Shown in pieces: positions 26,240-37,888 of a DNA stretch of 64,000 nt (position 1 is the first letter of the stretch; each line of letters opens with the position of its first letter). Source of the DNA: Nakamurella lactea DSM 19367 (GTDB taxonomy: Bacteria; Actinomycetota; Actinomycetes; Mycobacteriales; Nakamurellaceae); contig NZ_AUFT01000011.1 in NCBI RefSeq assembly GCF_000426645.1, positions 62,001 through 126,000 on the forward strand, in the 5' to 3' direction. The position numbers were made by a program, and so were the translations under genes. The notes beneath the pieces were generated by a model. That model was given only the letters and a program-made list of their open reading frames with translations, searched no databases and was not told the origin of the DNA.

Positions 26240-26323
26240 CATGCCCTTGGCCTGTTCGATGCGCACCCGGGTGTTCAGCGCGGTCTGCAGCTGCTCGGTG
26301 AGGACTGTTTGGTCACGGGTCAT
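26240..26323 (-). pseudogene. ANTAR-domain gene remnant
   Basis: The first 28 codons from ATG 26323 read MTRDQTVLTEQLQTALNTR followed by VRIEQAKGM, which is the beginning of an ANTAR domain (helix one and the EQAKG signature). After that the frame loses all similarity, and neither alternative frame restores the second and third helices. It overlaps the end of the DUF1365 gene by 11 bp. It is best read as a truncated relic of an ANTAR regulator. Confidence 0.5.
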
Positions 26324-27086
26324 CCGGCCCGCCGTGCGGGATCCGGTTGACGACCGGTAGGCCTGCAGCCCACAACCGCACGCCTTGCAGTCGAATCCAC
26401 ACGCTGGTCAGCATCGTCATCGCCGGCCGCCGAGCCACCGCCCGCAGCAGGCTCGCCGTACTCGCCGGACGCCGGGTGCCCGCCAGCGTGGCGGTAAAGA
26501 CCGTCGCACCGCCCTGACGCAGCGCGATCGTGATGGACAGCCGCTCCCCCGGCGGGGAGAAGCGCATCAGATAGCGGCCGTCAACGGTCAGGAACGGGGA
26601 GACGTAGAACTGCTTGTCCTGTTGCACCCGCCCGGCCGGATCGGGATGCAACAGGTAGACATGGCGCTCCCGATAGGTGTTGTGGACCTCGGCGAGAATG
26701 CAGGCCAGCTCACCGGTCTCGGCATAACACCAGTGGACGCTGATCGGGTTGAAGGCGTGCCCGAAGCTGCGGGCGTTGGCCAGCATCAGCACTCGGCCGC
26801 CGGTCAGGTCGATGCCGTTGCCGGCCAGAAAGGCCGTCACGTTTTCCTTGATGCTGCGGCCAGGATCGCCCAGGTGGTCGCGGGACTCGAACCGGGCCAG
26901 CGGACGCTGCCACAGCGGCAGCCGGGGAAGCTCGTCGAGATCGACCAGCCAGTAATAGACGCGGTAGGAGAACGCACGCCTGGATGGCACTGTCCGTACG
27001 TGACCCAACTCCGCTTGGTACAACCACGGCGGCCCGCCGCCGGCGGCCAACGCGACGCCTCCGCCCACGCTTCGTGCTTCTGCCAT
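26313..27086 (-). CDS. DUF1365 family protein
   Basis: 257 residues with the family landmarks YQAELGHVRTVPSRRAFSYR near the N-terminus, ARSFGHAFNPISVHWCYAET and the C-terminal VWIRLQGVRLWAAGLPV. A good ribosome site (AAGGAGG) precedes ATG 27086. DUF1365 proteins are co-inherited with cyclopropane-fatty-acid synthase, an FAD oxidoreductase and DUF1295 in many bacteria, including the mycobacterial sigK locus, and are thought to help modify lipid acyl chains. Here the gene is separated from those partners by a tspO relic and a CHRD-like gene. Confidence 0.85.
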   Translation of the reverse strand: MAEARSVGGGVALAAGGGPPWLYQAELGHVRTVPSRRAFSYRVYYWLVDLDELPRLPLWQRPLARFESRDHLGDPGRSIKENVTAFLAGNGIDLTGGRVLMLANARSFGHAFNPISVHWCYAETGELACILAEVHNTYRERHVYLLHPDPAGRVQQDKQFYVSPFLTVDGRYLMRFSPPGERLSITIALRQGGATVFTATLAGTRRPASTASLLRAVARRPAMTMLTSVWIRLQGVRLWAAGLPVVNRIPHGGPDDP

Positions 27087-27134
27087 CTTCCTCCTTGCCG
27101 TGAGTGGTTCGGAGCACTCGACCGGCCGGACTGG

Positions 27135-27383
27135 TCACCAACGATGCAATGGGGCACACGCGCATCGGTTCGGGTTCCGGCGGGCAATGTCAGTGTTGAG
27201 GACCAATGCGACTCCACCCCACACCGCATACGGCACCAGCGTGTCCGCGGCACCGCCGAGCAGTCTGTACAACACCGTCCACACCGGGCGAAGGCCGAAC
27301 GGGGCGGCTGCCACTCGGGCTTGCACAGGGATCGATACAGGACGAGTACGGGGTGTCGGCCACCCGCCGACAGTGGAAGTCAC
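27135..27383 (-). pseudogene. TspO/MBR family remnant with internal deletion
   Basis: On the minus strand codons around 27302-27168 read PFGLRPVWTVLYRLLGGAAD joined directly to TLVPYAVWGGVALVLN and TDIARRN. The first part matches the FGPVWTxLYxLMG loop and helix of TspO, the second the C-terminal helix with its VPYxxWxxxAxxLN signature; the roughly 70 residues normally between them are missing. The N-terminal part is also degraded. TspO is a membrane tryptophan-rich sensory protein binding porphyrins and lipids. The fragment cannot make a full TspO. Confidence 0.55.
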
Positions 27384-27751
27384 GGCGACCGCGAAAGGCC
27401 CTCAAGGCAACTTGCCGATGCATCGATACCTCCTGATCTTCATGTGCAGAGCGCGAAAGGCCTTGGCCGGCATATGCCCTCGCCGGTCCTGGTCGGCTCC
27501 CCGGAGGATTCGGACGAGCTGATCCCCGATCCCGGCGCGGGCGCGCGGGCGTTGATCGCCGCGCGCTGACCGTACTGAGGATGCCGGTGCGCATCCAGGC
27601 TCTCAACCGGGTCGGCCGTTCCATCAGTTGGGATCTGATGCTGCAGGCACAGCGAGGTAGCCCGGGACACCGGACACCTTGTCCCACGTCCCGGGCCACC
27701 TCTGGTGAACCGCTACCTATCTGGCTGCCCGGCGGAGCCGGACATCAGCTC
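27384..27751. other. Gene-free stretch
   Basis: About 370 bp between the tspO relic and the CHRD-like gene. A short plus-strand frame beginning MHRYLLIFM has no ribosome site and no continuing domain. No promoter or hairpin stands out. Confidence 0.4.
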
Positions 27752-28624
27752 TCAGTTCTCGCTGGTCCGCCGGCGACGCAGCGCCACCGCACCCGCACCC
27801 GCGGCTGCCACCAGCGCGAGGCCACCCAGCGCGTACTCCATGGTGTTGCCGTCCGAGGCCGCCATCGAGCCGCCGCCGGTGTTCGCCCCGCCCGAGGGCA
27901 TGGCCGACATCTGCGAGGCCTGCAACGGTCCGCACAGCGCCGGCGCGGTCCCGATCAGTGCAAGCTTCTTGTCCGCTCCCGGCAGGGTCACATTCAGCGA
28001 GTTCGGCGTGCTCAGCGAGGCCTTCGGCGCCGTCGCCGGGTTCAGGCCGTGCACCACGACCACGGCCGTACCGGCCTTGATCGATGCGATGGTGTCGGCG
28101 TTCATGGTGAACGTCCGCTTGTAGGTGAAGCTGCCACCCCCGGGAGCGACTGTCACATCGGTCGCCGTCGAGGTGTCGGTGGCACCCTTGGTCGAGAACG
28201 TGGTGCCGATCATGCCGTACGCATCATGGCCCTCGACGGTGCTGATCACCCCATCACCGTTGGCGTCGGCCGACGCGGTCGGACAGGTGCCCTGGCCGGC
28301 GATGTGGATGTGGTTCACGTGCGGGAACGGCGCCCCTGCGAACCCGGCCGGGATCCCCAGCGCGGCAAGCGTCTTGGTGTCGGTCGGGAGCTTGTCGGCC
28401 AGGCCGGTCACCGTTTCGGTGACGGTCGCCTGGTCACCGTCGAGGGTCAGCATGACGGTGCCGGAGGCCGCACCGTCCGGGGTGTTCAGCGGCACCGCCG
28501 CCAGGGTGGCCTGGTAGCTGGCCGGCTCGGCTGCGGCGCTGGCCGGTGCGGTCAACGCCAATCCGGTCAGCGCTGCGATCCCGGCGGCCGCGAATGGCAC
28601 CGCAAATCGACTGATCTTGGACAT
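27752..28624 (-). CDS. Exported CHRD-like surface protein with C-terminal anchor
   Basis: 290 residues. A signal peptide (FAAAGIAALTGLALTAPASA) starts the protein. The mature part holds a CHRD-like/superoxide-dismutase-like fold with FPHVNHIHIAGQG, an EF-hand-like loop DANGDGVIS probably binding calcium, and AVVVVHGLNP. The C-terminus has a hydrophobic helix (YALGGLALVAAAGAGAVAL) followed by RRRR, shaped like a sortase sorting signal, but no LPxTG precedes it; MPSGG is the nearest candidate. A class F sortase lies 5.6 kb away in the same locus. A SigK-like promoter lies about 100 bp upstream (28725-28752). Confidence 0.75.
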   Translation of the reverse strand: MSKISRFAVPFAAAGIAALTGLALTAPASAAAEPASYQATLAAVPLNTPDGAASGTVMLTLDGDQATVTETVTGLADKLPTDTKTLAALGIPAGFAGAPFPHVNHIHIAGQGTCPTASADANGDGVISTVEGHDAYGMIGTTFSTKGATDTSTATDVTVAPGGGSFTYKRTFTMNADTIASIKAGTAVVVVHGLNPATAPKASLSTPNSLNVTLPGADKKLALIGTAPALCGPLQASQMSAMPSGGANTGGGSMAASDGNTMEYALGGLALVAAAGAGAVALRRRRTSEN

Positions 28625-28724
28625 GAGATGAATCCCTTCCATCGATGCGGCCGAGACGCTGTGCCCCAACCGGAGCGCGCTCGCCGGGCGTTCGCGCCGG
28701 CGAGCGCATCTGCACTCAAGTAGC

Positions 28725-28752
28725 CATCCGGGTCCGTTCGGCCCGCGGATGG
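28725..28752 (-). promoter_or_regulatory. SigK-like promoter of the CHRD-like gene, also palindromic
   Basis: On the minus strand CCATCC is followed after 16 bases by CGGATG. Because CCATCCG (28724-28730) and CGGATGG (28746-28752) are inverted copies, the same pattern reads on the plus strand, and the element could also fold as a hairpin ending the upstream FAD oxidoreductase transcript. It shares the -35 and spacing with four other sites in the locus. Confidence 0.5.
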
Positions 28753-28815
28753 GTCCGACAACCAAATTTCTGGTCGGGATCGGTTCGCCGTTTCGCTCAC
28801 GACCCTCGTGTGTGC

Positions 28816-30120
28816 TCACCAGTTGACTCCGAACGCGGCGGCCGCGGCGACGCCGGACCGACAGCCGTCCTCGTGGAAACCCCATCCGTGGTAGGCGCCG
28901 GCGAAGGCGGTGACCGGGGTGTTCAGCTCGGGCAGACGTGCCCGAGCGCCGGCCGAGGGCACGTCATACACCGGGTGCCGGTATTCCATCCGGGCGATCA
29001 CCGAAACGGGATCGATCCGGTCGGCGGCATTCAACGTCACCAGGAACTGCCGCTCGCCCGGCAGCCCCTGCAGCCGGTTCATCCAATAGGTGACCACCGG
29101 GCCGTCCGCCGGATCGCCGTGGGACGGAACCAGATAGTTCCAGGATGCGCGGGCACCGCGGGCGCGGGGTAGCAGCGACGAGTCGGTGTGCAGCACGGTG
29201 TGGTTGGTCGAGTAGCCGAGCGCCCCGAGCACCTGATGCTCGGCGGCGGTGGGGTCGGCGAGCAACGACAGCGCCTGGTCGGCGTGAGTGGCCAGCACCA
29301 CCTTGTCGAAGTCGGTCACGGTGCCGGTGCCGTCCGTGACCGATGCGGCCCGCTCGCGACGTTGGACCGCGGTGACCTTGTGGCCGCGCCGCACGTCCGC
29401 GAGTTGCGCCGCCAAGGCGTCGACGTAGCGTCCGGAACCGCCGGGGATCGTGTACCACTGCGGCGAGTGGCCGATGCTGAGCATCCCGTGGTGGTCCAGG
29501 AATCGGAACAGGAACCGCGCCGGGTATTCCGTTGCCTTGCCGGACCCGCACGACCAGACGCACGCCACAACGGGAACGGCGTACAGCTCGCAAAATTCGG
29601 CGGAGAAGTGTTGCCGGGCCAGGAATTCGCCGTAGCTGGTGTCGTCGCCTTCGTCGGCGTCACACAGGAACTGGGTAGCACTGCGGTGAAAGCGCCGCAC
29701 CTGGGCGAGCAGGCAGAGGAATCGCCGAGACAGCAGCTGCTGCGGCTGCGCGGCGAGGCCGCGAATGCCGCGACCGCCGGCGTACTCCAACCCGCTCGCC
29801 TCGTGCCGGATGCTCATACTCATCTCGGCCCTGCGCACCGGCACGTCCAGTTCGCCGAGCAACCGGCGCAGCAGCGGATAGGTCCGGTCGTTGTGCACGA
29901 TGAACCCCGAGTCCACCGCCAGCGGCTTTCCGTTGTCGTCAACCGTGCGGTGGGTGTGCGCGTGCCCGCCGAGCCGATCGTCCGCTTCGAACAGCACCAC
30001 CCGGTGCGTCTTTCGCAGCAGGTAGGCGGCCGTCAGCCCGGAGATGCCGGAGCCGACGACCGCCACTGACGGCCGGACCGACGGCGGCATCGGACGCTCG
30101 GACACCACGACGGCGCTCAC
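28816..30120 (-). CDS. FAD-dependent oxidoreductase (flavin amine-oxidase type)
   Basis: 434 residues from GTG 30120, which overlaps the stop of DUF1295 by 4 bp (GTGA). The N-terminal FAD motif VAVVGSGISGLTAAYLL is followed by FEADDRLGGHAHT, and the C-terminus by FAGAYHGWGFHEDG, the pattern of the NAD/FAD protein that accompanies cyclopropane synthase. In mycobacteria the orthologous gene lies next to sigK. The likely role is desaturation or oxidation of lipid acyl chains, or supply of a modified-lipid precursor; the exact reaction is not established. Confidence 0.88.
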   Translation of the reverse strand: MSAVVVSERPMPPSVRPSVAVVGSGISGLTAAYLLRKTHRVVLFEADDRLGGHAHTHRTVDDNGKPLAVDSGFIVHNDRTYPLLRRLLGELDVPVRRAEMSMSIRHEASGLEYAGGRGIRGLAAQPQQLLSRRFLCLLAQVRRFHRSATQFLCDADEGDDTSYGEFLARQHFSAEFCELYAVPVVACVWSCGSGKATEYPARFLFRFLDHHGMLSIGHSPQWYTIPGGSGRYVDALAAQLADVRRGHKVTAVQRRERAASVTDGTGTVTDFDKVVLATHADQALSLLADPTAAEHQVLGALGYSTNHTVLHTDSSLLPRARGARASWNYLVPSHGDPADGPVVTYWMNRLQGLPGERQFLVTLNAADRIDPVSVIARMEYRHPVYDVPSAGARARLPELNTPVTAFAGAYHGWGFHEDGCRSGVAAAAAFGVNW

Positions 30121-30899
30121 GCCAACCTCTTGGGCGGCAACGGCACGAAGCCCGAGGTGGACCGCACGTACTCGGCGTAGCCGGGCCGGGACTCGTGCAT
30201 TCGCTGTTCGGTCAGGGCCTTGCCGGTCTTGGCCACCAGCAGGTAGGTCATCAGCAGCGGCGACACCACCGTCAGCAGGCCCGGCCACGCCCAGGCGACC
30301 GTCAGGAACAGTCCCCACCACGCGCAGGCGTCACCGAAGTAGTTGGGGTGACGGGTGTATCGCCAGAGCCCGGAACGCAGAATCCGGTCGGGATCGGTGC
30401 GCTGCGCCTGGAAGGCGGCCAGCTGCCGATCGCCGACCGATTCGAAGATCAGGCCAATAGCCCAGACTGCGACGCCGATGGCCACCACCACGACCACCGG
30501 ATCCGTCAGCAGCATCGCCGCCTGCACCGGCAACGACACCACCCACATCACCACGCCCTGCGGCAGGTGGACCCGCCGAACAACGCCCATTGCACCGGCG
30601 TCGGACAACATCCGTACGTATCGCGGGTCCTCCGCGCGCCCGCGGTTCCGCCGGCCGATGTGCACGCCGAGACGAAGGCCCCAGACGGTCACCATGGCGG
30701 CCACCGTCCAGCGCAGCCAGGTTGTTCCGTGCCCGGACGCCAACAGCATTGCGACCCAGGCCACGACCGCGAACCCCGGCCCCCACACGACATCGATCAC
30801 CGAGTACCTCCCGGTGCTCCGGCCGGCGAGGAAGGTGGCGGCCATCAGCACCACAACCGCGGCCGCGGTACCCGCCAGGCAGAACAGCACGGTGGTCAT
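30117..30899 (-). CDS. DUF1295 membrane protein (steroid 5-alpha-reductase-like fold)
   Basis: 260 residues with six or seven membrane helices and the family signature LWRYTRHPNYFGDACAWWG near residue 190, then EQRMHESRPGYAEYVRSTSG. The fold is that of isoprenylcysteine methyltransferases and steroid reductases, which act on lipid substrates within the membrane. It overlaps the cyclopropane-synthase gene and the FAD oxidoreductase gene by 4 bp each, so the three proteins are made together. Confidence 0.88.
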   Translation of the reverse strand: MTTVLFCLAGTAAAVVVLMAATFLAGRSTGRYSVIDVVWGPGFAVVAWVAMLLASGHGTTWLRWTVAAMVTVWGLRLGVHIGRRNRGRAEDPRYVRMLSDAGAMGVVRRVHLPQGVVMWVVSLPVQAAMLLTDPVVVVVAIGVAVWAIGLIFESVGDRQLAAFQAQRTDPDRILRSGLWRYTRHPNYFGDACAWWGLFLTVAWAWPGLLTVVSPLLMTYLLVAKTGKALTEQRMHESRPGYAEYVRSTSGFVPLPPKRLA

Positions 30900-32224
30900 C
30901 GGGTTCTCCGGCCGGCCGGGACGACGGCACGGTCCAAGGGCTGCCGGTCGGGTCGGGCAGCGACGATCTGGTCGACGCCCATCCGGCCGTCGGCGAACGC
31001 GAGGGCGCTGCCGGCGAGGTAGAGCCGCCAGATCCGGGCGAACTGCTCGCCGGCCAACTGGACCGCACGGTCCCAGCGCTGTTCCAGATTCGCGCGCCAG
31101 GCGTCGATGGTCGGCGGGTAGTGCTCCCGCAGGGCCTGCACGTCGCGGATCTCCAACCCGGCGCCGGTGAGGTGACCGACGGTGACGGCGAGGGGTTTCA
31201 TGTGCATGTCCGGCGCGATGTAGGTCTGGATGAACCGCCCGCCGCCGGGTGCGTCCGCGCCGCGGGACATCTGCTGCACCAACACCGTTCCAGCCGGCCG
31301 GAGCTGATCGTGCAGCAGTCGGGCGAACTGCGGGTACTCGCGGTCACCGACGTGTTCGCCCATCTCGATCGCGGCCACCGCATCGAATTTGGTGCTGCCA
31401 TCAGCGGCGAGCGAGGAGTCCAGGTCGCGGTAATCGGCGAGGACGACCTTCACCGTTTCGTCGAGTCCGGCAGCAGTGATGCGGTCGCGGACGAACTCGT
31501 ACTGCGCGCGGGACAGCGTCAGGCCGGTCGCCCTGACCCCGAACCGTTGCGCGGCATGCAGCAGCAGCGAGCCCCACCCGCATCCGACGTCGAGCAGCGA
31601 CGACCCGGCGGTCAACCCCAGCTTCCGGCAGATGAGATCCAATTTGGCCTGCTGGGCATCGGCCAGCGCACCGGCGCCGTCGGGGTAGTACCCGCACGAG
31701 TAGGCCATGGTGTCGTCCAGCAGCAGCCGGTAGAACTCGTTCCCGGCGTCGTAGTGATGCGCGATGGCGGCCCGATCCCGCGCCCGCTCATGGCGTTTGC
31801 CGGTCAGCGAGGCCGCTTCAGCCGGTGGTTCCGGCCGGCGGCCGAAGGCGCCGAGCCGGGCGCCATCGGCGAGCAACATCGGCCACTGCCGTAGTGGCGG
31901 GCGATCGGCACTCCGGCCGGACGGACGCAATGCTGCCAGCGCCGCGCCGAGGTCGCCGACCACGTCCACTTCTCCGCAGATGTAGGCGTCGGCAAGGCCG
32001 AGTTCACCTCGATCCCACAGCATCCGCCGCAGGGCACGCCGATCGCGCACCACGATGACCGGGGCTTCCCCGACCGCGGCTCCGCCCTGGCACCCGGGCG
32101 ATGGACGGATGACAGTACTGCCGTCCCACGCGGTGATGCCCAGCGGCAACGGCTGCCCGAGTACCGTCGCGGCGACCCGGTCCAGACGCTCCGCGACGGT
32201 TGATCTCCCCACAGGTGATCTCAT
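30896..32224 (-). CDS. Cyclopropane-fatty-acyl-phospholipid synthase family methyltransferase
   Basis: 442 residues. An N-terminal lipid-binding-like domain (LGLADAYICGEVDVVGDL) precedes the SAM-dependent methyltransferase with YDAGNEFYRLLLD, the SAM motif LLDVGCGWGSLLLHAA, LSRAQYEF and AIEMGEHVG, and the late YIAPDMHMKP segment. It methylates or cyclopropanates unsaturated acyl chains of membrane phospholipids. It is first in a coupled operon with DUF1295 and the FAD protein, in the same arrangement as the mycobacterial sigK locus (ufaA1-like gene). A SigK-like promoter lies about 110 bp upstream. Confidence 0.9.
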   Translation of the reverse strand: MRSPVGRSTVAERLDRVAATVLGQPLPLGITAWDGSTVIRPSPGCQGGAAVGEAPVIVVRDRRALRRMLWDRGELGLADAYICGEVDVVGDLGAALAALRPSGRSADRPPLRQWPMLLADGARLGAFGRRPEPPAEAASLTGKRHERARDRAAIAHHYDAGNEFYRLLLDDTMAYSCGYYPDGAGALADAQQAKLDLICRKLGLTAGSSLLDVGCGWGSLLLHAAQRFGVRATGLTLSRAQYEFVRDRITAAGLDETVKVVLADYRDLDSSLAADGSTKFDAVAAIEMGEHVGDREYPQFARLLHDQLRPAGTVLVQQMSRGADAPGGGRFIQTYIAPDMHMKPLAVTVGHLTGAGLEIRDVQALREHYPPTIDAWRANLEQRWDRAVQLAGEQFARIWRLYLAGSALAFADGRMGVDQIVAARPDRQPLDRAVVPAGRRTR

Positions 32225-32334
32225 CGCGGTGCCCCGTGCTGGATCGATGTCTGCCGCGTCATCATGGTCCCTCCGGTCCGGTACCTCGCCACATCGCCGC
32301 CCAAGTCAGCAGAACAATTGCGCAGTACCAACGA

Positions 32335-32362
32335 GATCCGAAGGCCAAGCCCCCGCGGATGG
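32335..32362 (-). promoter_or_regulatory. SigK-like promoter of the cyclopropane-synthase operon
   Basis: Minus-strand CCATCC (32362-32357), 16-base spacer, CGGATC (32340-32335). The spacing and both hexamers match the site before the sortase gene exactly. The predicted transcript would have a leader of about 105 bases before the synthase start. Confidence 0.55.
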
Positions 32363-32461
32363 GTCGACCACGAGCACTTACTTGCGGTAGCCGCGCCCGG
32401 CCGCACGAGGCAGCCGGGGTCGCTGCTGGCGCACACCTGTCCTGCCGATCCGAGCAGCCGG

Positions 32462-33199
32462 TCAGCCGGTGAGCGGCACCACCCAGATCGGATCAGTGGT
32501 CGGCGTCCGGGAACCACCGCTCGGTTCGACCGAAACCCCGACCGCGGTATCGGCGGCGGCGACCGGCACCACCACGCTGGACGGAGTCGCCGAAGCGGAA
32601 ACCAACCCCGCGGAGACGGCGTCGTCACCGGCCATCACCCACAACTGATAGTCGTTGCCGGCTGCCAGCTTCGGCATCTTCGGGGTGGTCACCACCGCTG
32701 CATGACAGGACGGCGCGTACCGCACCGATCCGCCCGCGCCGACGTCCGGCGCGATCACCCGGGCATCGGCGGCCCGCTGGACGCAGACCTCGGCGGTCGG
32801 CGGCCCGCTGGTTCCTTGGGATGCGACGACGACTCCGCCCGCGATCAGCGCCACCGCGATGATCACGGCGGCCAGCAGCGTTGGCGGTCGGCGATACCAA
32901 CGCGGCCGGTCGACTCGCTCCGCGCGACCGGGGGGTTCACTGCTCGCGGGATCGGGCTCGGCCGCGGGCGGCGGCGCCTGCGGAGTGATGGCGATCAACC
33001 TCATCAACGACACGTGCAGCGATGGTGGCGGCTCAACAGCGACGGCCGAACCCAGCAGCGCGACCGTTTCGGTGAACTCGCCGTACTCAGTCGCACAGGA
33101 GGGGCAAGTGTCCAAGTGTCGATCGAACGCTGCCGCCTCGGCGGGCAGCAACGCATCCAGCGCCCGGGCACCGGTGTCGACATGCAATTGCGCGTTCAT
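32462..33199 (-). CDS. rskA: Anti-sigma-K factor (RskA-like)
   Basis: 245 residues. The cytoplasmic N-terminus holds a zinc-type anti-sigma domain with H-x3-C-x2-C (HLDTCPSC, about residues 28-35), then one membrane helix (TLLAAVIIAVALIAGGVVVA, about 108-127) and an extracytoplasmic RskA-type domain with YQLWVMAGDD. The start overlaps the sigK stop by 4 bp. It should hold SigK at the membrane and release it when the outer domain is cleaved. Identity rests on the pairing with a SigK-like sigma factor and on the C-terminal domain. Confidence 0.88.
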   Translation of the reverse strand: MNAQLHVDTGARALDALLPAEAAAFDRHLDTCPSCATEYGEFTETVALLGSAVAVEPPPSLHVSLMRLIAITPQAPPPAAEPDPASSEPPGRAERVDRPRWYRRPPTLLAAVIIAVALIAGGVVVASQGTSGPPTAEVCVQRAADARVIAPDVGAGGSVRYAPSCHAAVVTTPKMPKLAAGNDYQLWVMAGDDAVSAGLVSASATPSSVVVPVAAADTAVGVSVEPSGGSRTPTTDPIWVVPLTG

Positions 33200-33810
33200 C
33201 GGGCCACCTTCAGACAGTCGCGCAGACGGATCAGGCCGTCCCGCATCCGGGTCTTCACCGTCGGCAGCGGGGTTTCCAGCAGGTGCGCCACCTGCGCGTA
33301 GGTATAGCCGTTGTAGTACGCCAGAGTCACCGACTCCCGCTGGATATCCGTCAAGGTCAGCAGACACCGGCGCACGGCCCGGCGTTCCCATCGGTGCTCG
33401 ACGGCTTCAACGACGGTGTCGGATTCCCTGGATGCCGTCGAAGCGGCGACCTTCGCTTCCCGATCGGCCGACGCCTGGGTCGAGCGAACTCTGTCCACGG
33501 CGCGGGAATGGGTCACCGACATCACCCAGCCGGCCGCCGATCCCTTACTCCGGTCGAAATAGCCGGCCCGCCGCCAGATCTCCAGGAACACCTCCTGTGC
33601 CACCTCCTCGGCCAGGCCGGGATCACGCACCACGCGGCGGCACAGTCCAAAGACCCGGGCACCGAACTGTCGGTAGAACGACTCGAACGCTTCGGTGTGT
33701 CCCTGCGCGATCCGCCGCAGCAGCTCGGCCGCATCATCCTCGGATCCCGGTGCATCACCCGGGCCGCGGCCCGGATCGTCAGGAACTGCAGACAACGACC
33801 GTCCCACCAT
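33196..33810 (-). CDS. sigK: ECF RNA polymerase sigma factor SigK
   Basis: 204 residues. Region 2 is YRQFGARVFGLCRRVV to EEVAQEVFLEIWRRAG and WVMSVTHSRAVDRVRS; region 4 is RRCLLTLTDIQRESVTLAYY followed by YAQVAHLLETPLPTVKTRMR. This is the SigK/SigL/SigM-like ECF group paired with RskA anti-sigma factors. The neighbourhood (RskA, cyclopropane synthase, DUF1295, FAD protein, DUF1365, fasciclin) is the one known for SigK of mycobacteria, which drives surface antigens MPT70 and MPT83. A promoter with a SigK-like pattern lies 42 bp upstream, suggesting self-activation. Confidence 0.9.
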   Translation of the reverse strand: MVGRSLSAVPDDPGRGPGDAPGSEDDAAELLRRIAQGHTEAFESFYRQFGARVFGLCRRVVRDPGLAEEVAQEVFLEIWRRAGYFDRSKGSAAGWVMSVTHSRAVDRVRSTQASADREAKVAASTASRESDTVVEAVEHRWERRAVRRCLLTLTDIQRESVTLAYYNGYTYAQVAHLLETPLPTVKTRMRDGLIRLRDCLKVAR

Positions 33811-33851
33811 CGCGCACCTCCCTCATCCCGCCGAACAACTGGTCACACCGG

Positions 33852-33879
33852 TATTCGATGCAGCCGACCACCCGGATTG
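33852..33879 (-). promoter_or_regulatory. Candidate self-activated sigK promoter
   Basis: Minus-strand CAATCC, 16-base spacer, CGAATA, ending 42 bp before the sigK start. The -35 differs by one base from CCATCC used at the other four sites, the spacer is identical, and the -10 has the CGAAT form I recall for mycobacterial SigK promoters. Confidence 0.5.
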
Positions 33880-33980
33880 GTCCCGACCCGGCCATCCAGG
33901 GCAGTGTTCGGGAACCGCCTCCATCATCTCGGACCGTGTCGTCACGCCAGTTCGACCGCCGGTGGGCGTCCGACGGGAGA

Positions 33981-34221
33981 GATCCGCGAAGCGCAGCACC
34001 CCGACCATCGGGTGCGAGTCGCCGGAGATGACCCGGTAGCTCTGGGGGTGGGTACCGGCGCCCAGTCCGGACGACAGCCGGGTGGCGATCTTGGTTCCGT
34101 CGCCGTTCGGGTGGAACGCAGTCTCGGTGTCGACGCGCGTCGGGATGAGCCATTGCACCGTCGGCATCGGATGCGATGATGCCAGATATTCGTTGCCGGC
34201 CGACCGCCGGAATGCCCACAT
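33981..34221 (-). pseudogene. CopC-domain remnant
   Basis: From about 34221 the minus strand reads YLASSHPMP, then VDTETAFHPNGDGTKIATRL and LGAGTHPQSYRVISGDSHP with VGVLRFADL. The last part is the CopC signature (LxxGTYxVxYRVVSxDGHPVxGxxxF), the first resembles its start (SSxPxxG). About 30 residues of the middle are missing and no signal peptide or membrane part follows. CopC is a periplasmic copper-binding domain. This looks like a shrunken relic lying between sigK and the sortase gene. Confidence 0.45.
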
Positions 34222-34233
34222 CGAATACGCAGG

Positions 34234-35130
34234 TCAGGCCCGATGGGAGGAGACCAGAGTGGCGTAGGCGACGATATTGCTCTCGTAATGGCCGCTGCCA
34301 GGGTCGAAGGTGCCACCACAGGTGATCAACCGCAGGCCGGCATGGTCGATGTTCCCGTACACCTCAAGAGTCGGGAAATCGTCCTTGCCGTACGAACGGA
34401 CACCATCGATCCGGAACACCGCGACGGTGCCGTCGGCGCGGCCGATGTCCACGGTATCGCCGGGCTTCAGGGTGCCCAACCTGTAGAACACACCCGGTCC
34501 ATATTTGGCAGAGTCGATGTGTCCCAGGATGATCGACGGACCTGCGGATCCGGGCGTCGGAGAGTTCTTGTACCAGCCCGGCTTGGAATCAGGGTCGTTC
34601 AGGTCGGGGACCTGCACACTGCCGTCCGCGTTGAGCCCGAGGTCGATCAGCGGCGCGTCCACACCGATCGTGGGAATGGACAGCGACACCGGCGCTGAGG
34701 CAGGCAGGACCGGTCCGGTCAAGTCCGGCCTGGTCGGGTCCGGTGTCGGAGTGCCGACAGCAGTGTGCGCCGTGCCGGTCGTCGGGCTCGGCACGGTGGT
34801 GACGCGCGGGTTCGACGGTTCGGGGGAACTGCGGGTGTCTGACGGTGCCGTGGTCGCTAGCGCAGCGGTGGACCGGGTGATCGGGTCGGTGGACGCCGCG
34901 TCACCGGGAGTCCGGCCGCGCTCCGGTTCACCAGCCCGATCCGTGCGGGTGGCGCTCGCACTCGAAACACCGGGGCCATCGATGGAGCCGGCGGCCGACG
35001 CCGGAGGCATCGGTGGTCCCGTCCTGCTACCGGCCCAGGAGACCGCGATCAACGTGATACCGACTGCACACAGCACGGCAGCGACAGCCACATACAGCCG
35101 CCAACTGATCCGACGGTGGGTCCCTGCCAT
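34234..35130 (-). CDS. Class F sortase
   Basis: 298 residues. ATG 35130 follows a GGGAG site by six bases. An N-terminal membrane helix (LYVAVAAVLCAVGITLIAVSW) is followed by a long Ser/Thr/Pro linker (about residues 30-140) and the sortase domain: LSIPTIGVDAPLIDLGLN, catalytic His in ILGHIDS, catalytic Cys in LRLITCGGTFD and the closing HYESNIVAYATL. Class F sortases of actinobacteria cleave LPxTG-type signals of a few surface proteins. The CHRD-like protein at 27752-28624 is the only candidate substrate seen nearby. A SigK-like promoter precedes it (35265-35292). Confidence 0.88.
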   Translation of the reverse strand: MAGTHRRISWRLYVAVAAVLCAVGITLIAVSWAGSRTGPPMPPASAAGSIDGPGVSSASATRTDRAGEPERGRTPGDAASTDPITRSTAALATTAPSDTRSSPEPSNPRVTTVPSPTTGTAHTAVGTPTPDPTRPDLTGPVLPASAPVSLSIPTIGVDAPLIDLGLNADGSVQVPDLNDPDSKPGWYKNSPTPGSAGPSIILGHIDSAKYGPGVFYRLGTLKPGDTVDIGRADGTVAVFRIDGVRSYGKDDFPTLEVYGNIDHAGLRLITCGGTFDPGSGHYESNIVAYATLVSSHRA

Positions 35131-35264
35131 CGAACACTCCCTTTCCGCCTGCCGTTGGGGTTGCCGACCGTACTCCGCAGCAGGCACCGTGATCTGTGAG
35201 ACCTGCGGACCCCACCCGCTCGACCCTCGGGCTTCGGCGGTGATGTCACCGCCGCAACACTGGT

Positions 35265-35292
35265 GATCCGGCGGGGCGCCTGTGATGGATGG
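35265..35292 (-). promoter_or_regulatory. SigK-like promoter of the sortase gene
   Basis: Minus-strand CCATCC, 16-base spacer, CGGATC, about 135 bp upstream of the sortase start. Both hexamers equal those of the cyclopropane-synthase operon site. It shares the intergenic region with the oppositely directed site at 35341-35368. Confidence 0.55.
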
Positions 35293-35340
35293 GTCCAGGT
35301 TCGAAGTCCCTCGGGGAATTGACGATTCCGGTGCTGGCAC

Positions 35341-35368
35341 CCATCCGTCACCGGGTCCGCAGCGGACA
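35341..35368 (+). promoter_or_regulatory. SigK-like promoter of the molybdoenzyme gene
   Basis: CCATCC (35341-35346), 16-base spacer, CGGACA (35363-35368). The -10 element ends six bases before ATG 35375, so transcription would start at or next to the A of the start codon, giving a leaderless mRNA; this agrees with the absence of a ribosome site there. Confidence 0.45.
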
Positions 35369-35374
35369 CCGGGT

Positions 35375-37021
35375 ATGGACAACACGACGTCGACGCCGCG
35401 GCGTTCCGCGCGGCGACCGGGTCTGCCGCTCGCGGCGCTGATCGGCGTCGTCGCGGTCGGCCTGGCGCTGGGGGTCGCGGAACTCCTTGCAGCGCTGGGC
35501 GGCTGGTTCGGGTGGTGGGGCGTCAGTACGTCCCCGGTGGTGTCGCTGGGCTCGACCTTCATCTCGCTGACGCCGGAATGGCTCAAAGAGTTCGCCATCC
35601 GGACGTTCGGGCAGCACGACAAGGATGCGCTGCTGGCCGGGATGGGCATCACCTTTCTGCTGATCGCCACGATCGTCGGAGTGATCGGACGCAGTCGGCC
35701 GCGTTGGGCCGCCGGCATTCTGGCTGCCGGTGTCATCGCCGCTGCCATCGCGGTACTACTGCGACCGGCTACCGGCATTGTCGATGTCTTGCCCACCGTG
35801 TTGGGTGGCGCGGCAGGGATCGCATTTCTGGTCAGTGCGCTGCGACGAGCACTCAATTGCCCGCTACCGAATGCAACCCATCCTGGAGCTGACCCGGCCG
35901 AACGCAGTACTCCTGCAGACGGTCTCGCCGGTTCGCCGCGCAGTGCCATCACGCCACAGTCCAACCGCCGCGGCTTCGTTCGGCTCATCGGGCTGGGAGC
36001 GCTGGCGGCCGCGACGGCCGGCGCGCTCTCCCGCTGGATACCGTCCACCGAGCAGGTGACAGCCAGCCGCGCAGGCATCGTCCTGCCCACGGCGGCCGAC
36101 CTTCAACCGGCCCCGACGGTTGATCTGAAAACCCCAGGTCTGACGCCATTCCTGACGACGAATGCCGATTTCTATCGGGTGGACACCGCATTCGCCGTGC
36201 CCCGGATCACCGCCCAGGATTGGCGACTGCGCGTGCATGGCATGGTCAGCCACCCGTTCGAAATCGACTTCGCGGAGTTGACCGCGATGACGCTGGTTCA
36301 GCGAACGATCACCCTGTCCTGTGTCTCCAACGAGGTCGGCGGCAACCTCAACGGCACCGCGACCTGGGTCGGCGCCCGCATGGCCGACATCCTCGGCCGC
36401 GCCCGACCCCAGCCGGGCGCCGACTGCGTGCTGTCCACCAGTGTCGATTCCTTCACTGTCTCTACGCCGTTGGCCGCGCTCACCGACGGGCGGGACGCGC
36501 TGCTCGCGGTCGGCATGAACGGCGATCCGCTCCCGCTGGAACACGGCTTCCCTGTGCGGATGGTCGTGCCGGGCCTGTTCGGCTACGTCTCGGCCACCAA
36601 ATGGGTAGTGGACCTGGAAGTCACCACGTTCTCGGCAGTCAACGCCTACTGGACCAAGCGCGGCTGGTCGGCCAACGGCCCGATCAAGACCGAATCACGC
36701 ATCGACATCCCCCGCGGATTCGCCCAACTGAAGACCGGGCCCGTTCCGATCGCCGGTGTCGCCTGGGCCCAGCACCGCGGCATCACCGCTGTGCACGTGC
36801 AGATCGACGACGGCAGCTGGCTGCCGGCCACCTTGTCCGCCCCGTTCAGCATCGACACCTGGCGGCAATGGGTCTACCTGTGGAACGCCACACCGGGCGA
36901 ACACACCATCCGCTGCAGGGCCACCGACGCCACCGGAACAACCCAAACCAGCGCCGCGGCACCGATCATGCCCGACGGAGCCACCGGCTACGACTCCAGA
37001 GTCGTCACCGTCAATCCCTAA
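35375..37021 (+). CDS. Membrane-anchored sulfite-oxidase-fold molybdoenzyme
   Basis: 548 residues from ATG 35375. Four membrane helices fill the first ~190 residues (LAALIGVVAVGLALGVAELL, LAGMGITFLLIATIVGVIG, WAAGILAAGVIAAAIAVLL, VLPTVLGGAAGIAFLVSAL). A twin-Arg-like segment NRRGFVRLIGLGALA precedes the exported catalytic domain. That domain shows WRLRVHGMVSHPFEIDFAEL, the molybdenum-ligand Cys in LSCVSNEVGG, FGYVSATKWVVDLEVTTF and a C-terminal dimerisation-like sandwich ending in TGYDSRVVTV. Sulfite oxidase and methionine-sulfoxide reductase MsrP share this fold; the substrate is not known. The Met-rich fasciclin gene follows 90 bp later. Confidence 0.88.
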   Translation: MDNTTSTPRRSARRPGLPLAALIGVVAVGLALGVAELLAALGGWFGWWGVSTSPVVSLGSTFISLTPEWLKEFAIRTFGQHDKDALLAGMGITFLLIATIVGVIGRSRPRWAAGILAAGVIAAAIAVLLRPATGIVDVLPTVLGGAAGIAFLVSALRRALNCPLPNATHPGADPAERSTPADGLAGSPRSAITPQSNRRGFVRLIGLGALAAATAGALSRWIPSTEQVTASRAGIVLPTAADLQPAPTVDLKTPGLTPFLTTNADFYRVDTAFAVPRITAQDWRLRVHGMVSHPFEIDFAELTAMTLVQRTITLSCVSNEVGGNLNGTATWVGARMADILGRARPQPGADCVLSTSVDSFTVSTPLAALTDGRDALLAVGMNGDPLPLEHGFPVRMVVPGLFGYVSATKWVVDLEVTTFSAVNAYWTKRGWSANGPIKTESRIDIPRGFAQLKTGPVPIAGVAWAQHRGITAVHVQIDDGSWLPATLSAPFSIDTWRQWVYLWNATPGEHTIRCRATDATGTTQTSAAAPIMPDGATGYDSRVVTVNP

Positions 37022-37111
37022 CCCCCAGCCCGGCCCAGCGCAATCGCCGCTGCCAGCCAACGGAATCGGTAGACACCAGGTCCACCGACAACAAGAAGAA
37101 GGAGCATCACC

Positions 37112-37888
37112 ATGTTGCTGAAACGCACCCTCACACTGGCCGCCGCAGCAGGAATCGCACTGGCCCTGACCGCCTGCGGATCCTCCACTCCCGCAGCCGA
37201 TTCGGGCTCGGCCACCTCGGCACCTGCGACCTCGGTACCCATGACCTCACCGATGAGCTCAGGCGCCATGAGCGGCATGGGATCACCAGCCATGGGTTCC
37301 GGCGAAATGGGCAGCACGGACTCCGAGGCGATGGGGTCCGGCGCCATGGGCAGCATGGACTCGGGGGCCATGAGTTCAGGTGCGGACCCGGCCGCCGATC
37401 TCGTCGGACCAGGCTGCGCCGACTACGCCAAGCAGGTACCCACCGGTGCCGGATCGGTCACCGGAATGGCCGGCGACCCGGTCGCGACTGCTGCCTCGAA
37501 CAACCCGGTGCTGACCACTCTGGTGGCGGCAGTATCAGGCCAGCTCAACCCTAAGGTCGACCTGGTCAATACGCTGAACAACGGCCAGTACACCGTTTTC
37601 GCCCCTGTTGATGATGCGTTCAAGAAGATCCCGGCAGCGACCATCGACAAGCTCAAGACCGACTCCACGCTACTGTCGTCCATCCTGACCTACCACGTCA
37701 TCTCCGGGCAGCTGTCCCCTAGCCAGATCGACGGGACGCACACCACGGTCAACGGAGCGAAGGTCACCGTCAGCGGCTCCGGAGACAACCTCAAGGTCGG
37801 CGACGCATCGGTGATCTGCGGCGGAGTCCACACCGCAAACGCCACCGTCTACCTCATCGACACAGTGCTGATGCCCCCGGCAAAGTAA
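37112..37888 (+). CDS. Fasciclin-domain lipoprotein with Met-rich segment (MPT70/83-like)
   Basis: 258 residues. AAGGAG lies eight bases before the ATG. The lipobox LTAC (Cys22) makes it a lipoprotein. Residues ~42-92 form a low-complexity segment with ten Met in about fifty residues in GAMGS/GSM-type repeats. The rest is a single fasciclin domain: [34 protein letters not shown] and [14 protein letters not shown]70 and MPT83 of mycobacteria are the known SigK-driven fasciclin proteins, so this is probably the local counterpart. The Met-rich part may bind copper or absorb oxidants; it lies beside a sulfite-oxidase-fold enzyme that could repair Met sulfoxide. Confidence 0.88.

Follow-up and report, generated by a model that had tools for sequence, protein, structure and literature searches.

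Genes and promoter-like sites of the SigK locus

In Nakamurella lactea DSM 19367, the genes for an extracytoplasmic function (ECF) sigma factor, SigK, and its anti-sigma factor, RskA, lie among genes for surface proteins, a class F sortase and lipid-modifying enzymes. The locus comprises positions 27087-37888 (10,802 bases) of the window, the whole 64,000-nucleotide stretch of contig NZ_AUFT01000011.1 that was analysed. Its principal genes are as follows.

27752-28624 (-): CHRD-like secreted protein with a C-terminal GVDTG sorting domain (NF058571, 38.6 bits, cut-off 29)
28816-30120 (-): flavin amine oxidoreductase (PF01593, 86 bits)
30117-30899 (-): DUF1295 membrane enzyme (PF06966, 214.4 bits)
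30896-32224 (-): cyclopropane/methyl-branched fatty acid synthase-like methyltransferase, CMAS (PF02353, 260.3 bits)
32462-33199 (-): rskA, anti-sigma-K factor (Pfam RskA_C, 74.1 bits, cut-off 29.4; NF052375, 159.3 bits, cut-off 100)
33196-33810 (-): sigK, ECF sigma factor (NCBIfam PRK09646 SigK, 259.7 bits, cut-off 226)
34234-35130 (-): class F sortase, SrtF (NF033748, 193.9 bits, cut-off 166; Pfam Sortase)
35375-37021 (+): membrane molybdoenzyme of the sulfite oxidase/MsrP superfamily (PF00174, 142.9 bits; sulfite:cytochrome c oxidoreductase, E 7e-20)
37112-37888 (+): MPT83-like fasciclin lipoprotein with a Met-rich linker (PF02469, 99.5 bits)

The sigma factor passes the curated SigK model and is encoded next to RskA, which confirms the identity proposed for it in the first-pass annotation. 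Its best match among protein structures is M. tuberculosis SigK (4nqw, E 2e-48), and both regulatory cysteines are kept (Cys149 and Cys199, corresponding to C133 and C183 in M. tuberculosis), as they are in 201 of 220 SigKs, the window included. RskA scores 20.6 bits with the RskA_N model, under its cut-off of 27. The genome encodes a second sigK-rskA pair near the end of another contig (L061, 18207-18915, on contig C2 of G000), beside a further molybdoenzyme. The second SigK is 67% identical to the window SigK and its gene has a promoter-like site of its own with a CGAA -10 element. A tree built from 111 SigKs groups the window SigK with 17 rows of its genus (support 100/99) and does not pair it with the second SigK; its placement within that set is approximate, and the bootstrap had not converged.

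The genes for CMAS, the DUF1295 enzyme and the amine oxidoreductase form one minus-strand operon. These lipid genes resemble those of the Rv0446c-Rv0449c kind in M. tuberculosis. The molybdoenzyme falls below the cut-offs of the equivalog models for MsrP (51.8 bits, cut-off 207), SoxC (95.7, cut-off 420) and SorA (94.3, cut-off 600). The fasciclin gene starts 90 nucleotides (nt) after the molybdoenzyme gene, with one predicted promoter for the pair. It is the sole fasciclin match found in the genome and lies 3.3 kb from sigK, not immediately adjacent to it. Its linker holds 10 Met in 76 residues. The linkers of 75 fasciclin proteins, delimited by a crude rule that plainly made one of them (L077) too long, contain 5.8% Met against a background of 1.4%, and eight of the nine with five or more Met come from this genus, the window included. 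The Met/Gly/Ser-rich linker is encoded by 39-nt direct repeats at window positions 37251-37380 (+).

Five sites in the locus share a -35 element, a spacer of exactly 16 bases and related -10 elements. They were scored with a matrix trained on 133 sites from relatives, the N. lactea genome being left out.

33852-33879 (-): before sigK; CAATCC-N16-CGAATA, 41 nt to the start at 33810; score 24.5, rank 1 of 127,946 window positions
28725-28752 (-): before the CHRD-like gene; CCATCC-N16-CGGATG, near-palindromic, 100 nt to the start at 28624; score 15.4
35341-35368 (+): before the molybdoenzyme gene; CCATCC-N16-CGGACA, 6 nt to the ATG (35375), leaderless if used; score 15.1
32335-32362 (-): before the CMAS-DUF1295-amine oxidase operon; CCATCC-N16-CGGATC, 110 nt to the start at 32224; score 14.2
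35265-35292 (-): before the sortase gene; CCATCC-N16-CGGATC, 134 nt to the start at 35130; score 11.0

Apart from the sigK site, the sites hold window ranks 5, 6, 7 and 9; the weakest of the five is the one before the sortase gene. All five are outside called genes. The starts of the CMAS and sortase genes are given here as 32224 and 35130; the gene caller had put both too far in. The coordinates, strands, spacer and -10 hexamers noted in the first-pass annotation were verified in the sequence, as was the placement of each site before its gene or operon. The -35 element is indeed shared, but CAATCC is no deviation from it, as had been supposed: of 139 sites (138 of relatives and one of the second sigK of N. 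lactea), 55% have A at the second position and 45% have C.

Enrichment of the motif and its conservation in relatives

The motif CMATCC-N16-CGRA, a pattern fitted to the five window sites themselves, was searched in the whole genome (5,820,860 bases in 27 contigs). Seven matches fall in the window as a whole, where 1.02 would be expected; no shuffle out of 100 gave as many. One match, at 28724+, was not counted as a promoter of its own; it is the reverse reading of the CHRD site, and the nearest plus-strand gene downstream is 6.6 kb off. Another, at 38719- (38721- in the pattern search), was set aside as lying within a called gene. The CHRD site is near-palindromic because CGGATGG at its -10 end mirrors CCATCCG at its -35 end, and both 28724+ and 28727- match the pattern.

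The genome has 61 matches. Six of them lie in the locus, where 0.10 would be expected from the rest of the genome (P(>=5)=9e-8); the objection that the motif might be equally dense elsewhere therefore fails, and the proposed concentration in this locus stands. Among the 54 matches beyond the window, 43 are within called genes, two overlap a gene end and nine are intergenic. When these 54 were scored with the matrix, the top two, both of the CGAA form, proved to precede the second sigK and a dipZ-like gene (L004, 2-1447, -; DsbD_TM and thioredoxin-like domains), whose strong SigK site scores 21.6. In M. tuberculosis, according to PMC9861118, mpt83, mpt70 and dipZ each have their own SigK-dependent promoter.

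The matrix points to two additional candidate sites, listed here with the genes behind them.

27106-27133 (-): CAGTCC-N16-CGAACC, 19 nt before the DUF1365 gene; score 15.9, rank 4
26313-27086 (-): DUF1365 protein (PF07103, 237.9 bits)
34187-34214 (-): CATTCC-N16-CGAATA, before the CopC-like fragment and upstream of sigK; score 17.0, rank 2
33823-34167 (-): CopC-like fragment, C-terminal half only (PF04234, 22.7 bits, under the cut-off of 23.3; profile positions 50-90 of 92)

In two relatives, a site stands 6 nt upstream of the DUF1365 gene. The CopC-like fragment, between the sortase gene and sigK, is probably a decayed gene.

Related loci were gathered in three sets: 41 SigK or SigK-like loci of the same order, among the matches listed and including that of the second N. 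lactea sigK; the best 80 named loci of a longer match list, nearly all actinobacterial with one titled Candidatus Melainabacteria; and 109 further loci from the class, again among the matches listed. Flanks reach up to 10 kb in the first 121 loci and 1.5-4 kb in the other 109, and a SigK was called in 219 of the 230. The loci are related and some are duplicated: L237, L238 and L243 are from the genomes of L085, L083 and L087, while L272, L276, L294 and L318, judged by the length of the contig and the position on it, repeat L158, L160, L198 and L230, and further repeats are possible. Their genes were predicted with a simple codon-usage caller that sometimes places starts wrongly.

The same kind of site recurs before the same kinds of genes. 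In the 121 loci with long flanks, with repeated sites counted once for module genes and every time for other genes, CMATCC-N16-CGAA stands before SigK-type genes at 67 sites (115 genes, distant ECFs included), before molybdoenzyme genes at 24 (53 genes), before fasciclin genes at 19 (43 genes) and before CHRD homologues at five (eight genes). The 17 amine-oxidase homologues have 11 distinct CGAA sites and one CGGA site upstream. Other genes of these loci, 1671 in number, account for 17 sites. Fisher values computed from these counts take sites for genes and serve as description only. No CGAA site was found before the nine sortase genes of the 121 loci, because most of them are placed after a CHRD gene. 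The motif of the relatives reaches into the spacer, with G after the -35 element and GC at spacer positions 13-14. In five of eight molybdoenzyme sites of the same order, the called start is 6 or 7 nt beyond the end of the -10 element. This distance, shared with the window, points to the same ancestral molybdoenzyme promoter, which would probably be leaderless.

Conservation at the same genes across many genomes is the reason for reading the motif as a SigK promoter, and the SigK-regulon reading is well supported by this comparison. Published work agrees with it: PMC7509140 describes SigK sites as highly conserved between Actinobacteria and SigKs of different species as able to recognise the mpt70 promoter. 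The single predicted regulon that the first-pass annotation drew up, joining surface proteins, a sortase and lipid enzymes, is thus upheld as a prediction by gene identities, enrichment and conservation in relatives. We consider it very likely that this is a SigK-RskA stress regulon, most of which is carried in a single cluster. The regulon is probably autoregulated. The first-pass annotation had overlooked the two additional candidate sites, the second sigK, dipZ, the GVDTG sorting domain and the rarity of CGGA among SigK sites.

The CGGA form of the -10 element

Several observations weigh against accepting all five sites as SigK promoters. The match at 38719-, presumably a chance occurrence within a gene, scores 16.4 (rank 3), above four of the five sites; matrix score alone therefore cannot certify the CGGA sites, and the case for them rests mostly on position, orientation and target. 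The matrix was itself made from pattern-selected sites, and the sortase site scores below every one of them (lowest 11.5). The third -10 base is G in four of the five window sites, while the 231 module sites of the gathered loci include 226 with A and only 5 with G at this base. Where position 102 of SigK is A, G or S (it is S in the window), all 21 sites have A as the third base.

These points bear on the suggestion that only the sigK and molybdoenzyme sites, and perhaps that of DUF1365, work, and that the CHRD, CMAS and sortase sites include at least one look-alike in GC-rich DNA. The CGGA form makes up 37 of the 54 matches elsewhere in the genome, most of which are within called genes, and the sortase and CMAS sites both score less than the match within a gene. 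On the other hand, chance would supply only 0.10 sites to the locus, all five sites are intergenic and correctly oriented, and four of the five precede genes or operons whose homologues bear SigK sites elsewhere, the sortase site being the exception. In addition, sigK's own promoter is of the CGGA form in 8 of the 30 loci sampled from one genus. We regard the look-alike explanation as improbable and retain all five sites as candidate SigK promoters.

In a structure of sigma-H, the third -10 base seems to be contacted by residue N88, and the equivalent position is Arg in sigma-K (PMC6411747). By spacing from a conserved Trp, this position is SigK 102, which is Ser in the window SigK. The window SigK combines V99 with S102, a pair absent among the site-bearing loci compared; the second SigK likewise has S102. 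A rule that Gln102 specifies CGGA was tried and given up. Among the 219 SigKs, all three with Gln102 had CGGA (four of four sites) against 1 of 196 Arg sites, and a larger sample broke this correlation. The sample consists of 30 loci from the genus of G392, probably Streptomyces by likeness to L232; one of the three Gln102 SigKs is from a named Streptomyces. Its Gln102 SigKs all go with CGGA, and its Arg102 SigKs are mixed, with CGGA in 4 of 11 that bear sites. The sigK promoter is CGGA in L346-L349, L352, L359, L364 and L365, and CGTA in L355 and L375. Residue 102 alone therefore does not fix the third -10 base. On these comparisons, CGGA appears to be a natural, rare variant of the SigK site, and its dominance in the N. 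lactea locus is unexplained.

The same facts could be read as a split between paralogues, in which the window SigK has drifted to CGGA and the second SigK, in a cascade, reads the CGAA promoter of the window sigK. Such a split would account for CGGA at four of five sites in the locus, for CGAA at the second sigK and dipZ, and for the V99/S102 pair at what is apparently the sigma-H N88 contact (PMC6411747). It is unlikely, since the second SigK also has S102, the small residues A, G and S at this position go with A as the third base wherever a site was compared, and the tie between Gln102 and CGGA is broken by the four Arg102 SigKs. A further idea is that the sites are operators, with the inverted repeat ATCCG-N14-CGGAT bound by a dimeric regulator. 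The nearly palindromic CHRD site would suit it. Nevertheless, the sigK site and the 226 module sites noted above have an A at the third -10 base that breaks the symmetry, and the fixed 16-base spacer and the 6-nt distance to the ATG fit a promoter. We consider operators very improbable. The SigK-promoter reading is kept in what follows.

Known systems, the sortase module and a proposed role

The presence of sigK together with a fasciclin target had been singled out as noteworthy. This does not hold: PMC7509140 dates the description of an mpt83-sigK-rskA cassette, conserved SigK site included, to 2008, and in 85 of the 219 SigK loci a fasciclin or molybdoenzyme gene lies close by. The legend of Figure 7 in PMC7509140 contrasts Rhodococcus equi with Nocardia, where by that legend mpt83 is absent. 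Lipid genes are near sigK in 30 of the 219 loci. The three modules (fasciclin/molybdoenzyme, lipid, sortase plus CHRD) occur together in none of the 219, about half of which have short flanks. The basic arrangement is known and widespread; that it is joined by a class F sortase and a likely substrate seems to have received little attention. Two features are thus less explored: the module of class F sortase and GVDTG protein, and the predicted promoters of the CGGA form.

The N. lactea locus resembles the SigK-RskA system and the mpt83-sigK-rskA cassette of M. tuberculosis in its two-Cys SigK, RskA, SigK site, MPT83-like lipoprotein and dipZ-like target. It differs in clustering the molybdoenzyme, the class F sortase and the GVDTG-CHRD protein, in the second sigK, and in sites that are mostly CGGA. 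The closest likeness in composition is to Haloactinopolyspora alba (L198) and Actinoplanes utahensis (L159), which combine sigK, rskA, fasciclin, molybdoenzyme, CHRD (GVDTG) and class F sortase genes. Their sites are CGAA, they have no lipid operon within the flank, and CHRD directly precedes the sortase gene, whereas the two are about 5.6 kb apart in the window.

The class F sortase and the GVDTG-bearing CHRD-like protein appear, from gene neighbourhoods, to be a recurrent SigK-linked module with seven distinct relatives. A sortase homologue and a CHRD homologue stand beside sigK in nine loci, seven of them distinct (L083, L159, L164, L179, L187, L189 and L198). The three sortases tested (L159, L187 and L198) all pass the class F cut-off. 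The seven CHRD proteins all match the GVDTG domain, four of them over the cut-off, and share 31-37% identity with the window protein. Their C-termini carry GGVDTG or GGVATG, and that of the window carries GGANTG; the window C-terminus consists of GGANTGGG, a transmembrane stretch and RRRR. The Pfam CHRD model gives no match to the window protein at E<=1, while the L198 homologue reaches 28.1 bits (cut-off 24.1), so the window protein is termed CHRD-like by homology only. The tie between the two genes was also seen independently. Among the best 30 GVDTG loci in the order (L126-L155), 28 have a homologue of the window class F sortase (E<=1e-8) within a 1.5 kb flank; the exceptions are the window's own locus, with its distant sortase, and one truncated where its contig ends. 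GVDTG proteins are therefore likely class F sortase substrates, and the two genes apparently encode dedicated sortase-substrate pairs. According to PMC13251363, neighbours of two class F sortases might be substrates but are without the pentapeptide motif. A literature search by titles and abstract starts surfaced no paper on a SigK-sortase link, which is not proof of absence.

In the proposed mechanism, SigK would be held at the membrane by RskA until a signal frees it. The freed SigK would then act at C(A/C)ATCC-N16-CG(A/G)A promoters, including the one before sigK, to initiate transcription, and we infer that it reads the CGGA sites in vivo. Its targets would be the molybdoenzyme-fasciclin pair, the lipid operon, the CHRD-like surface protein and the class F sortase. 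DUF1365 is a probable further target, and dipZ and the second sigK would join from elsewhere in the genome. The sortase may then anchor the CHRD-like protein via its GVDTG signal.

The regulon most likely serves as an extracytoplasmic oxidant or envelope-stress response, because it places a sulfite-oxidase/MsrP-type enzyme beside a Met-rich lipoprotein and adds dipZ, a weakly SOD-like (superoxide dismutase) CHRD domain and membrane-lipid methylation. PMC8315932 reports that pairs of a Met-rich protein and MsrP under ECF control contribute to hypochlorous acid (HOCl) resistance in other bacteria. The systems it describes, Brucella BcrS/AbcS-bcrXQP and the Azospira SigF HOCl response, share an ECF sigma/anti-sigma pair, a Met-rich protein and an MsrP-type reductase with the window. 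They belong to ECF16 with a DUF1109 anti-sigma factor, and the likeness of the Met-rich proteins is one of Met content (PMC8315932). The lipid genes can be likened to the Rhodobacter furan fatty acid pathway, which is raised in a chrR mutant and in which enzymes for fatty acid methylation and tailoring are linked to the gene of an ECF anti-sigma factor (PMC7380195). The likeness to UfaM/UfaD/UfaO is by description, and 10-methyl fatty acid synthesis is equally possible (PMC5660069). Homologues of MPT83/MPT70 are light-induced in M. kansasii (PMC9861118).

Two published observations stand against the oxidant role. As reported in PMC9861118, dipZ was unresponsive in the light experiment. PMC7509140 reports that the SigK-RskA complex is more stable with the disulfide oxidised and that reduction sets SigK free, the reverse of what simple oxidant induction would require. 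The SOD likeness of the CHRD-like protein was considered and left as a hint. The CHRD family has invariant His residues and a weak SOD likeness, and a profile match to the Cu/Zn SOD 4rvp has E 0.001. In a Foldseek search with the AlphaFold model, a poor one (mean pLDDT 50), the top matches were mostly SODs, the best with an E of only 0.035, and there was no fold match at E 0.001.

A more far-reaching version holds that in actinobacteria SigK controls a full extracytoplasmic oxidant-defence kit, with a Met-rich MPT83-type lipoprotein as sink for oxidants, an MsrP-like molybdoenzyme to regenerate it, a dipZ thiol supply and a SOD-like CHRD protein that a dedicated class F sortase attaches to the wall via GVDTG. 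We offer it tentatively and find it doubtful. If true, both the MPT83 family and class F sortases would gain a physiological role. PMC9861118 describes what stimulates the SigK system as obscure, and PMC13251363 states that it is unknown what class F sortases do physiologically. With nearly all modules side by side, the N. lactea locus may allow SigK stimuli and class F sortase roles to be tested together.

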